From an uncultured Rhodospirillales bacterium (lineage in GTDB: Bacteria > Pseudomonadota > Alphaproteobacteria > Azospirillales > Azospirillaceae): a DNA stretch of 56,070 nucleotides. The stretch spans positions 1 through 56,070 of the forward strand of contig CAIOBP010000030.1 in the NCBI GenBank assembly GCA_903856295.1, read 5' to 3'. The position numbers and the translations under genes were made by a program. Shown here in pieces: positions 31,275 through 47,096 of the stretch. Position 1 is the first letter of the stretch. The number at the start of each line of letters is the position of its first letter. The notes beneath the pieces are model-generated. The model did no database searches. It was not told the origin of the DNA and saw only the letters and a list, made by a program, of their open reading frames with translations.

Positions 31275-31913
31275 GGGGAACTCCACGAAATGAGCGGCGC
31301 CCCGCGCCCGCGCCGTCCGGCCAATAAAAAAGCCCTCCACGGCCGGGAGGGCTTCGATGGTCGAACGGAGAAGAGGCGGGAGAGCGGCGAAAGGTGGCAG
31401 CACAGGAACAGGAAGAGGTTCGGACCCGGGGGCGACATCCGGCCCGCGCTCTCGAAGACCACGGCGCGGCCGGCAAAGGCGGCGATGGATAAGGGCCGGG
31501 TGTCACGGAATTGTTTCTCCGCATCAGAACCGAACTGCGATCAGTTTCGCCAGCGCCGAACCATTTGTCACCTCACATTTAGGTGCTAAACAAAAATTTA
31601 ACCCAAGGTCTGGTATCGCAGCCACTGGCTGCCCACGAATTCGGCTCAGGCCGCCCGCTTCGGCGACAAAGCGCTCTCCCGGCGCGCTCATTACGGATGT
31701 TGCCAATACGACTCGGCCGCAGCCTCATGGCGCATCTGGCGCGGAAAGGGCTTCCATTGCTACAGTTTGTGTTGTAGGAACATGGCGACGCAAAACATCG
31801 CGTCGACTACTTTAATTGAGTCGGCGTTTTCGTGTCACCCCGATGGGACGGTTCGCCCCGGGGAGGCAGTTCTGGAGCGAACCCGCGTCAGGGGAGCCCA
31901 AGCGGAGGAAACG
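31275..31913. other. Divergent phoH-minC intergenic region
   Basis: This 639-bp stretch holds the phoH leader with its intrinsic terminator (31322-31354), an AT-rich patch near 31575-31605 with a CACCT/AGGTG inverted repeat, and the upstream region of minC. Two GANTC sites (31708-31712 and 31817-31821) lie in the minC-proximal half. No ORF in it shows coding character. Confidence 0.5.
31322..31354 (-). terminator. Intrinsic terminator upstream of phoH
   Basis: On the minus strand a 9-bp stem (AAGCCCTCC/GGAGGGCTT) with a 7-nt loop is followed by TTTTTT. It ends 47 nt before the phoH start codon, so it either ends a separate minus-strand transcript or attenuates phoH. The plus-strand side has no T-tract. 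Confidence 0.8.
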
Positions 31914-44627: not shown

Positions 44628-46049
44628 TCACGTCCCTGGCTGCTGCAAGCTCTGAAGGACGCTGAGGGGAATGTCCCGCTTGTCGGCGATGACCCGGTTG
44701 CGGCCCGACCGCTTGGCCTCGTAAAGCGCCTCGTCGGCGCGCTTGATCAGGGTGTCCACGGTGTCGCCGACCCGGCCGCCGACCGCGACGCCGACACTGA
44801 CCGTGACCGTGATTTCCTTCACCGGGGCCGTGATCTCGAATCGGGTGTCGCCGATGCGCTGACGCAACCGCTCGGCCACCTGCAAGGCCGCCTCGCCGTC
44901 GGTGTCGGGCATGATGACCACGAATTCCTCGCCGCCCAACCGGGCCACCAAGTCGAAATTGCGCAGGTTGCGCGCCGAGCGCACCGCGACCTCGCGCAAG
45001 ACTTCGTCGCCGATGTCATGGCCGTAGGTGTCGTTGACCAGCTTAAAGTGGTCGATGTCGAACATCAGAATCGACACCGGCTTGTTGCTGTCGGCGGCCC
45101 GGTCGAGCAGGCGCGGCAAATGGGCGCTGACGTAGCGGCGGTTGAACACCCCGGTCAGCGAATCGGTCAGCGCCAGCGACAGGCTCTGTTCGTAATTGGC
45201 GCGCAACCGGTCCTGGTAGCGCTTGCGCCGGACCTGGGTGCGGAACCGCGCCTGCAACTCGTTGCGGTCGATCGGCTTGATCACATAATCATTGGCGCCC
45301 AGTTCCAGCCCCTTGGCCACCCGCTGGAGATCGCCCTCGTCGATCATCAGCAGAATCGGCACCTGACGGGTGCGCTCGTGGGAACGCAACTGGGAGCACA
45401 GGCGCAAGCCGTCCTCGTTGAGCAAGGTCAGGCTGACGATCACCAGATCGAATTCCTCGGCCAGCGCCCGGGCCAGCGACGCGGCGCAATTGGCGGCGGA
45501 AAAAACATCGGCGCCGTCGCGCTTCAGGGTTTCCGTGATCTTGTCGAGATCGAGCGGGCTGTCCTCCAGCACCAGCACCCGGGCCTTCTCGGTCGACTCG
45601 GACAGCATACTGACGCCGTTGATCAGCATGCCGAAATGGCCGGAGGTGCTCTCGCGCAACCGCCACTCGTCCATCATCATCTTGAGCCGGACCAGCGAGC
45701 GAACCCGGGCGAACAACGCAATGTCGTTGACCGGCTTGGTCAGGAAATCATCGGCGCCGGCCTCAAGGCCGCGCACGCGGTCGGAGATATCGGATAAGGC
45801 CGTGACCATCACCACGGGAATATGCATGGTCTCGGGATCGGAGCGGATGCGCTGACAAACCTCGAAACCATCCATTCCCGGCATCATGACATCGAGCAGG
45901 ACGATATCCGGGCTTTCCGTCTTGACCAGATCGAGCGCCTGCTGACCATTGTAGGCCGTCAATACATCGAAATACTCGCGCGTGAGCTTCGCCGCAAGCA
46001 GCTTCACGTTGGGCATCACGTCATCGACTACGAGTACTCGCGCAGACAT
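44628..46049 (-). CDS. pleD: PleD-type response regulator and diguanylate cyclase
   Basis: The 473-residue protein has two receiver domains (first with phospho-acceptor Asp in IVLLDVMMPGMDGFE; the second lacks a clear phospho-Asp in LVIVSLTLLNEDG, as in PleD) and a C-terminal GGDEF domain with active GGEEF (RLGGEEFVVIMP) and an RxxD inhibitory site (RNFD) five residues before it. It makes cyclic di-GMP on phosphorylation by DivJ-type kinases. It follows divK in the same order as Caulobacter. I place the start at the ATG giving MSARVLVVDD. Confidence 0.93.
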   Translation of the reverse strand: MSARVLVVDDVMPNVKLLAAKLTREYFDVLTAYNGQQALDLVKTESPDIVLLDVMMPGMDGFEVCQRIRSDPETMHIPVVMVTALSDISDRVRGLEAGADDFLTKPVNDIALFARVRSLVRLKMMMDEWRLRESTSGHFGMLINGVSMLSESTEKARVLVLEDSPLDLDKITETLKRDGADVFSAANCAASLARALAEEFDLVIVSLTLLNEDGLRLCSQLRSHERTRQVPILLMIDEGDLQRVAKGLELGANDYVIKPIDRNELQARFRTQVRRKRYQDRLRANYEQSLSLALTDSLTGVFNRRYVSAHLPRLLDRAADSNKPVSILMFDIDHFKLVNDTYGHDIGDEVLREVAVRSARNLRNFDLVARLGGEEFVVIMPDTDGEAALQVAERLRQRIGDTRFEITAPVKEITVTVSVGVAVGGRVGDTVDTLIKRADEALYEAKRSGRNRVIADKRDIPLSVLQSLQQPGT

Positions 46050-46078: not shown

Positions 46079-46495
46079 TCAATCATTCAAAAAACGCTGC
46101 ACCGCCTGGAGAAATTTAGTAACGGAAATCGGCTTAGCCAGATAATCTTCACAGCCGCCCTCCCGAATCTTCTCCTCATCGCCTTTCATTGCGAAAGCGG
46201 TCACCGCGATGATCGGGATCGACTTGAGTTCTTCGTCTTCCTTGATCCACTTCGTCACCTCCAGCCCGGAAACCTCCGGCAACTGGATGTCCATCAGGAT
46301 CAGATCCGGGCGATGCTCACGCGCCAGCTTCAGGGCTTCCATGCCGTCCTTGGTCTGCAGGGTCGCATAGCCGTGCGCCTCCAGCAGATCGTGGAACAGC
46401 TTCATATTGAGTTCGTTGTCTTCAACGATCAGGACGCACTTGGCGGCAGGGTCCCCCCCGGAACTCTGCGTCTTGTCCTTCACACCGCTAGACAT
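46079..46495 (-). CDS. divK: Single-domain response regulator DivK
   Basis: From the ATG with GGGGAGGT at 5-nt spacing this is a 138-residue protein: a short N-terminus and one receiver domain ([15 protein letters not shown], phospho-acceptor Asp in [13 protein letters not shown], Lys in EDYLAKPIS). The sequence is close to Caulobacter DivK, the essential regulator that feeds back on CckA and CtrA. It precedes pleD by 29 bp. Two CtrA-like boxes lie upstream. Confidence 0.95.
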
Positions 46496-46616
46496 CTCGA
46501 CCTCCCCCTGACCAGCGCCCGGCATGGACGCCTCCCATCGCCGCCGTCAAGATAACGCGGAGAGAGGCGACATGCACCCATAATTCGACGGGGGCGACCT
46601 CCACCTCAGGGCGGAT

Positions 46617-46631
46617 TTTACAATATGTTAA
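46617..46631. promoter_or_regulatory. CtrA-like box (proximal) upstream of divK
   Basis: On the minus strand TTAA-N7-TAAA (plus TTTA-N7-TTAA), one mismatch from the CtrA consensus TTAA-N7-TTAA, 122 bp upstream of the divK ATG. It overlaps a TAAAAT element that could be a -10. Confidence 0.45.
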
Positions 46632-46668
46632 CAAGCGACTGCGCTACGCCGCGGATCACCGCGCCTCG

Positions 46669-46683
46669 TTAATTAATTATTAA
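46669..46683. promoter_or_regulatory. CtrA box (distal) upstream of divK
   Basis: Exact TTAA-N7-TTAA, the full CtrA consensus, 174 bp upstream of the divK ATG and 52 bp from the proximal box. It overlaps the last codon and stop of the hypothetical gene at 46680. Confidence 0.6.
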
Positions 46684-47096
46684 TGAAACCAGGCCCGGGC
46701 CAGCGGACCGTCGAGCAGGCACGCGGCCAGGGGCGCGCCCAGCGACGACGACCGCGGCAGCGCCGTCCGCGCCAGATCGAGCGCCTGAAGCGCCTCCATC
46801 ACCAGCGCCACGGCATCATGGATTTGAGCGCGGCTGTCGGCCCCGACCCCGGTCGCCTCGAACATCAGGGTCTCGAGTTCGCCGACCGTCACCTGCAACC
46901 GCACCGCGGCCTCGGCAAGAACCCAAGCCGGGTCCTTGTGGTGAAACGCGCTCAGCCCGACCGGGGCCGGATCGCGCGTGAACTCGCCCGAACGGCCGGC
47001 GGTGTCACGGCCAGCGGTGTCATCGATACGGGGGGAAGCGCCGTCACGTCCGGCATTGGAGCACTCGGTCCTATGCTTCCTTAACCGCATCCCCAC
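46680..47096 (-). CDS. Hypothetical protein upstream of divK
   Basis: This 138-residue ORF starts with ATG and has a disordered, Arg/Thr-rich first third, then a more ordered helical half (AWVLAEAAVRLQVTVGELETLMFEATGVGADSRAQ). The tandem DTAGRDTAGR reflects a 15-bp duplication (46994-47023). I do not recognise it. It lies between the ROK kinase and divK on the same strand. GC-rich base use in the helical half supports coding, but the call is uncertain. Confidence 0.5.
   Translation of the reverse strand: MGMRLRKHRTECSNAGRDGASPRIDDTAGRDTAGRSGEFTRDPAPVGLSAFHHKDPAWVLAEAAVRLQVTVGELETLMFEATGVGADSRAQIHDAVALVMEALQALDLARTALPRSSSLGAPLAACLLDGPLARAWFH
46994..47023. repeat. 15-bp tandem duplication in the hypothetical gene
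   Basis: GGCCGGCGGTGTCAC (46994-47008) is followed by GGCCAGCGGTGTCAT (47009-47023), in frame. Confidence 0.75.

Follow-up and report, generated by a model that had tools for sequence, protein, structure and literature searches.

A CtrA-type box upstream of divK is conserved in the Azospirillaceae and has probably turned over in one uncultured species

A CtrA-type box upstream of divK is conserved at the level of the family Azospirillaceae. In an uncultured member of this family, two CtrA-type boxes are found upstream of divK that its closest relatives lack, and the link between CtrA and divK is probably kept in the lineage by turnover of sites rather than by conservation of these two boxes. 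The window analyzed here comprises positions 1-56,070 of a contig (CAIOBP010000030.1, or G000:C30) belonging to a genome assembly of 4,018,820 bases in 255 contigs.

Two CtrA-type boxes upstream of divK

In the window, divK is located on the minus strand at 46079-46495, with its ATG at 46495 and an alternative in-frame ATG at 46525. The next gene, 29 bp downstream and on the same strand, is pleD (44628-46049), and the two likely form one operon. The identities given to both genes in an earlier note on this DNA were borne out: the product of divK matched Caulobacter DivK (1m5t) over residues 19-136 (E 6e-58), and that of pleD passed the curated pleD model with 640.6 bits (cut-off, 474). Upstream of divK, also on the minus strand, there is a hypothetical gene (46680-47096) with no match in Pfam or NCBIfam.

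An exact CtrA-type box, TTAA-N7-TTAA, is found at 46669-46683 (TTAATTAATTATTAA; minus strand, TTAATAATTAATTAA in the direction of divK, followed by C at 46668), and a box with one mismatch at 46617-46631 (TTTACAATATGTTAA; minus strand, TTAACATATTGTAAA in the direction of divK). Their starts are 52 bp apart, leaving a gap of 37 bp between them, and the near edges of the one-mismatch and exact boxes are 122 and 174 bp, respectively, from the divK ATG (92 and 144 bp from the alternative ATG). The pair therefore stands as the note had described it, at this spacing and within 175 bp of divK. No other exact box was present in the window, and sites with up to one mismatch numbered five versus 0.71 expected, one of them (46673-46687) overlapping the exact box owing to the repetitive nature of the tract TTAATTAATTATTAATG. 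It had also been proposed that the exact box lies at the end of the upstream gene and may be read as coding. The overlap exists, but it is limited to the stop codon of the upstream ORF, which rules out that the box is mere coding sequence.

Shuffling the whole window never produced the exact box (0/100). When the stretch at 46496-46700 was shuffled locally, it appeared with a frequency of 0.00045 when single bases were shuffled (40,000 runs) and of 0.0015 when dinucleotides were (10,000 runs). For the exact box together with another site of up to one mismatch, the frequencies were 2.5e-5 and 0, respectively. By these local shuffles, the exact box is commoner upstream of divK than expected by chance (P 0.0005-0.0015), and the boxes found there are a real, non-random feature. 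At the scale of the genome there was no enrichment: TTAA-N7-TTAA occurs 14 times in 4.02 Mb versus 26 for the reversed control pattern AATT-N7-AATT, TTAAC-N6-TTAAC with one mismatch gave 37 strand-hits versus 70 for its control, and TAAC-N6-TTAAC was below its control in all five members of the genus. Since the motif is enriched locally at divK and not genome-wide, what counts as evidence is where the boxes lie and not how many there are. Of the 37 strand-hits (up to one mismatch, 4 Mb), two fall within 67 bp here.

None of the 13 other exact boxes was inside a gene, compared with 13/26 copies of AATT-N7-AATT (genes were called with our own GC3-based caller). Such a depletion is to be expected anyway because TTAA carries stop trinucleotides, and the case for these 13 boxes as a CtrA regulon is weak. 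We scanned 27 proteins flanking box sites in the genome, leaving out C233:19176 among the one-mismatch TTAAC-N6-TTAAC sites. Eight had no Pfam match, and those that could be named include hybrid kinases, a response regulator, a cell-wall hydrolase, a KDO transferase, and LpxC beside FtsZ, with no flagellar protein among the 27. A perfect TTAAC-N6-TTAAC is located at position 1074 of locus L185 (contig C160 of the same genome), downstream of ftsZ and 46 bp from lpxC.

The divK box across the family

The family set comprised 82 genomes with 83 divK loci (genome G051 has two, the second one odd), and the box was searched for, with one mismatch at most, in the 300 bp that precede the conserved VEDNELN codons of divK. 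It was present in 66 of the 83 loci, counting the window and the second G051 locus, versus 0.74 expected from base shuffles, and in 0/30 control stretches downstream. With the window's genus set aside and only the best divK counted per genome, it was found in 64/77 genomes and 8/12 genera; 43 of these 64 genomes come from a single genus (g3), and congeneric genomes do not count as independent. The 13 genomes in which it is missing are 2/45 of g3, 2/2 of g4, those of g7 and g8, and 7/7 of g10. In G051, which belongs to g4, the second divK-like locus carries a differently shaped box.

Nearly all one-mismatch sites of the family (63/65) depart from TTAA-N7-TTAA at base 1. Bases outside the selection are conserved as well, with C at base 5 in 21 and at base 16 in 19 of the 24 unique sites. 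The family form is nearly always [G/C/A]TAA-N7-TTAA and most often GTAAC-N6-TTAACC, starting 138-240 bp before the VEDNELN codons; in 37/43 g3 genomes, its TTAACC comes ca. 30 bp before a TATACC hexamer (start to start). Upstream of divK in A. brasilense (L008 and L010), the sequence is CTAACGACAATTTAACC. The family box fits a direct control of divK by CtrA like that of Caulobacter. Among open-licence papers, none was found whose title deals with CtrA sites at the Azospirillum divK.

Other sequences are shared within single genera. In g3, TTAACCGTCGCG is present upstream of divK in 39/43 genomes, and GTCGCGAC follows the box directly in 20/43. The sequence after the box in this genus resembles the SciP half motif GCGAC described in PMC4287350, on the opposite side of the box compared to Caulobacter; a literature search on the SciP heptamer found nothing. 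Six of the seven g10 genomes (L170, L171, L173, L175, L176, and L178) share a block, GGATTACCTG(T/A)TG, in their boxless divK upstream region, and a GGTTGTACCCG-like block further down.

Beyond the family, the presence of the box is patchy. It was found in 26/79 named loci with a near divK relative, versus 3.0 expected; this set is made up of 80 loci minus L015, which has too little upstream DNA, and several of its members belong to Azospirillaceae too, being organisms that the family set also contains. With one genome per family across the class, 11/28 had the box, or 12/29 if G012, from the window's family, is included (2.0 expected for 29). These are 29 of 33 rows, the window and three rows lacking a locus (G145, G097, and the second G087 match) having been left out. 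Expected counts for the family, named-loci, and class-wide sets all come from base shuffles, not dinucleotide shuffles. One alphaproteobacterial metagenome bin (L064) has two overlapping exact boxes upstream of divK, at -110 and -99 from the divK match, i.e., three TTAA at 11-bp steps.

CtrA and partner proteins

CtrA is encoded in the genome of the window (C249:12441-13112, 420.7 bits versus a cut-off of 350), and its best solved relative is the CtrA receiver 4qpj. Matches to CtrA were found in 82/82 family genomes at E ≤ 1e-60, 81 of them over the cut-off. All five members of the genus have a candidate ChpT, matching PF10090, which we take to be the family of ChpT, and the window's genome also encodes a SciP-type protein, matching PF06627 (DUF1153), presumably the family of SciP. 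Among 14 control genomes, each of these two models matched only Caulobacter. Our search for actors of the loop covered CtrA, the ChpT candidate, the SciP-type protein, and DivK. According to one survey, chpT, cckA, and divL are present in only 27-36% of Rhodospirillales genomes (PMC8116508).

The promoter region of ctrA in the window's own genome has a TTAAC-type box (TTAACGGATGGTGAA) at -146, plus a TTAACC nearer to ctrA (both in the gap at 1384-1541 of L190, C249). At least two boxes of up to one mismatch were present in 9 of the 10 ctrA loci examined among the 82 CtrA matches (8 of these 10 are from g3), which suggests that ctrA may be autoregulated in the family. The neighbor of ctrA at L190, in divergent orientation, is a gene for a fliI-like ATPase (Pfam ATP-synt_ab and T3SS_ATPase_C).

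Probable loss and gain of boxes in the window's genus

Both window boxes are absent from the close relatives, neither being found with up to one mismatch in any of the four congeners (0/4). The earlier note had taken the boxes as a sign that the DivK-CtrA loop is kept in this lineage. That these two boxes are kept is wrong, and the link itself, judging from the box in 64/77 genomes outside the genus, has probably persisted. Three congeners keep an eroded family box, GTCA[C/T]GAAC[C/T]GTTAACC, within the distance range of the family, and the fourth only the TTAACC half. GTTAACC is present in all four, and from the start of its TTAACC it is 26 bp to a block, TTATGRGTGCATRTC (the TTATG block), that is common to the five members of the genus and is found in the window at 46569-46583 on the minus strand (TTATGGGTGCATGTC). 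This block is a candidate -10 region, and TATCTTG (46548-46554, minus strand), also conserved in all five, might be an alternative promoter element; the terms -10 and -35 are used here for the hexamers.

In the window, the TTAAC half-site of the one-mismatch box (46627-46631, minus strand) starts 48 bp before the shared block, 22 bp further than TTAACC in the congeners. From the alignment, it could be what is left of the family box's 3' half, moved by these 22 bp. The exact box starts 52 bp beyond this TTAAC start and sits in an AT-rich junction. The conserved family box has another sequence form than the window boxes and another position with respect to the downstream block shared by the genus. 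A family matrix built without the window's genus was used to score 112,108 window positions. The exact box ranked third; the box at 46617-46631 reached 7.39 (rank 17) only when read on the plus strand, against the direction of divK, and its TTAAC half, read in the register of the family, 3.29 (rank 96). The top match of this matrix in the window was TAAACAAAAATTTAACC, at 31587-31603.

The gene upstream of divK also differs from that of the window, being a histidine kinase in three congeners and an OmpR-type regulator in one (by Pfam). Homologues of the window's hypothetical gene were found in 3/4 congeners, on contigs other than that of divK, and the fourth had no match. We infer that the DNA immediately upstream of the divK promoter was rearranged, that the old box decayed, and that new ones appeared. 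The window boxes would then reflect a turnover of sites, and CtrA would probably still control divK directly. Instead, the family box might be a true CtrA site, with direct control of divK by CtrA lost in this species and the window boxes being chance products of the AT-rich junction left by the rearrangement. The degraded ancestral box, the low complexity of the exact box (TTAATTAATTATTAATG), and the upstream gene unlike that of all four congeners agree with such a loss, and the g10, g7, g8, and main g4 divK loci are also devoid of a box. We nevertheless regard it as unlikely, given local odds of just 0.0005-0.0015 for the exact box and the clustering of two TTAAC-N6-TTAAC strand-hits, out of 37 in 4 Mb, within 67 bp.

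A candidate regulatory region

The reading that we favor, with moderate confidence, is that the divK-pleD operon is regulated in response to CtrA through the segment at 46610-46690, where the ancestral box decayed and the window boxes may take over. The TTAAC-type box at the ctrA promoter of the same genome lends internal support to it. In the family, phosphorylated CtrA would activate the divK promoter by binding a single box immediately before it, as a rule GTAAC-N6-TTAACC; the additional DivK would, as in Caulobacter, lower CtrA activity, resulting in a negative feedback loop. In the window species, the upstream sequence would have been replaced, and all that survives of the decayed ancestral box would be a TTAAC half-site, displaced and paired with a new, imperfect partner. 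With the exact box 52 bp further upstream, either or both sites may supply CtrA binding. Several observations count against this reading, namely, the absence of both boxes from 4/4 congeners, the 13/77 boxless genomes outside the genus, the location of the exact box in a repetitive TTAA tract 86-100 bp upstream of the candidate -10 block, the motif without genome-wide enrichment, and a scan of the divK upstream region with the sigma-70 consensus, which found no sigma-70-like promoter. An intrinsic terminator at 46692-46709 is weak (one found versus 0.6 expected). In its widest form, the proposal is tentative, and we lean against it: feedback from CtrA to divK might predate the Caulobacter lineage and have been kept by Azospirillaceae via the distinct, perhaps weaker GTAAC-N6-TTAACC, while in the window, where rearrangement broke the ancestral box, control might have been re-established through a half-site shifted by some two helical turns (the helical repeat is ca. 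10.5 bp) together with the new exact box.

The exact box lies well upstream of the candidate -10 block, and a role other than activation can be conceived for such a location, with the boxes binding CtrA as a repressor or as an upstream sensitizing array. At the pilA promoter of Caulobacter, upstream CtrA sites are described as repressing and as shifting the sensitivity to CtrA (PMC11264516). This seems quite improbable at divK, since TTAACC in the relatives precedes a putative -10-like hexamer by 26 bp (4/4 congeners) or ca. 30 bp (37/43 g3 genomes), near the position of an activator. We give hardly any credit to a reading of GTAAC-N6-TTAACC by another OmpR-type regulator, as might be argued for a predicted box that departs from the Caulobacter consensus at base 1 in 63/65 one-mismatch sites, because in Caulobacter divK is among the known targets of CtrA, whose motif is TTAA-N7-TTAA (PMC4287350), and CenR, the one other regulator of this type checked, is ruled out by its own motif, TGA-N8-TGA (PMC9275681; another paper on the CenR system gave no motif).

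Comparison with known CtrA circuits

The CtrA-responsive region proposed here has its closest model in Caulobacter, where CtrA controls divK, as the earlier note had stated, by direct activation (PMC4433202, PMC4287350), with DivK~P acting back to reduce the activity of CtrA (PMC4433202, PMC4287350, PMC7200025). Activator sites are described near or over the -35, as a full TTAA-N7-TTAA or a single TTAA half (PMC4287350). As at the divK promoter of Caulobacter crescentus, a CtrA-type motif is present upstream of divK, and CtrA, a SciP-type protein, and a ChpT candidate are encoded. Unlike in C. crescentus, base 1 of the family box is mostly not T ([G/C/A]TAA-N7-TTAA) by comparison with the published Caulobacter motif, and the window has two predicted sites, neither of them common to the congeners. 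As at the pilA promoter, there are multiple CtrA-type sites in the window, tens of base pairs apart; the gene is a different one, and the pilA sites have been footprinted and mutated (PMC11264516), whereas those of the window are sequence predictions.

Outside Caulobacter, the published picture is varied. In Sinorhizobium meliloti, CtrA feeds back on the DivK module, as predicted here, but there it acts directly on divJ, the control of divK being only indirect, whereas here the box is at divK itself (PMC4433202). In Brucella, CtrA was reported not to bind divK (work cited in PMC2877005), and that paper, a 2010 survey, described no clear feedback by CtrA in either Rhodospirillum or Magnetospirillum. 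Growth is not impaired when CtrA is lost in those Rhodospirillales that have been studied, and flagellar genes are under its control (cited in PMC8116508).

The box described here extends the known CtrA-divK circuit and does not constitute a new one. The family box suggests a wiring between CtrA and divK of the Caulobacter type, and its presence at divK in most of the sampled family genomes suggests that feedback from CtrA to DivK operates in this branch too. To this, the window adds a natural example of a single promoter at which boxes have probably been lost and gained.
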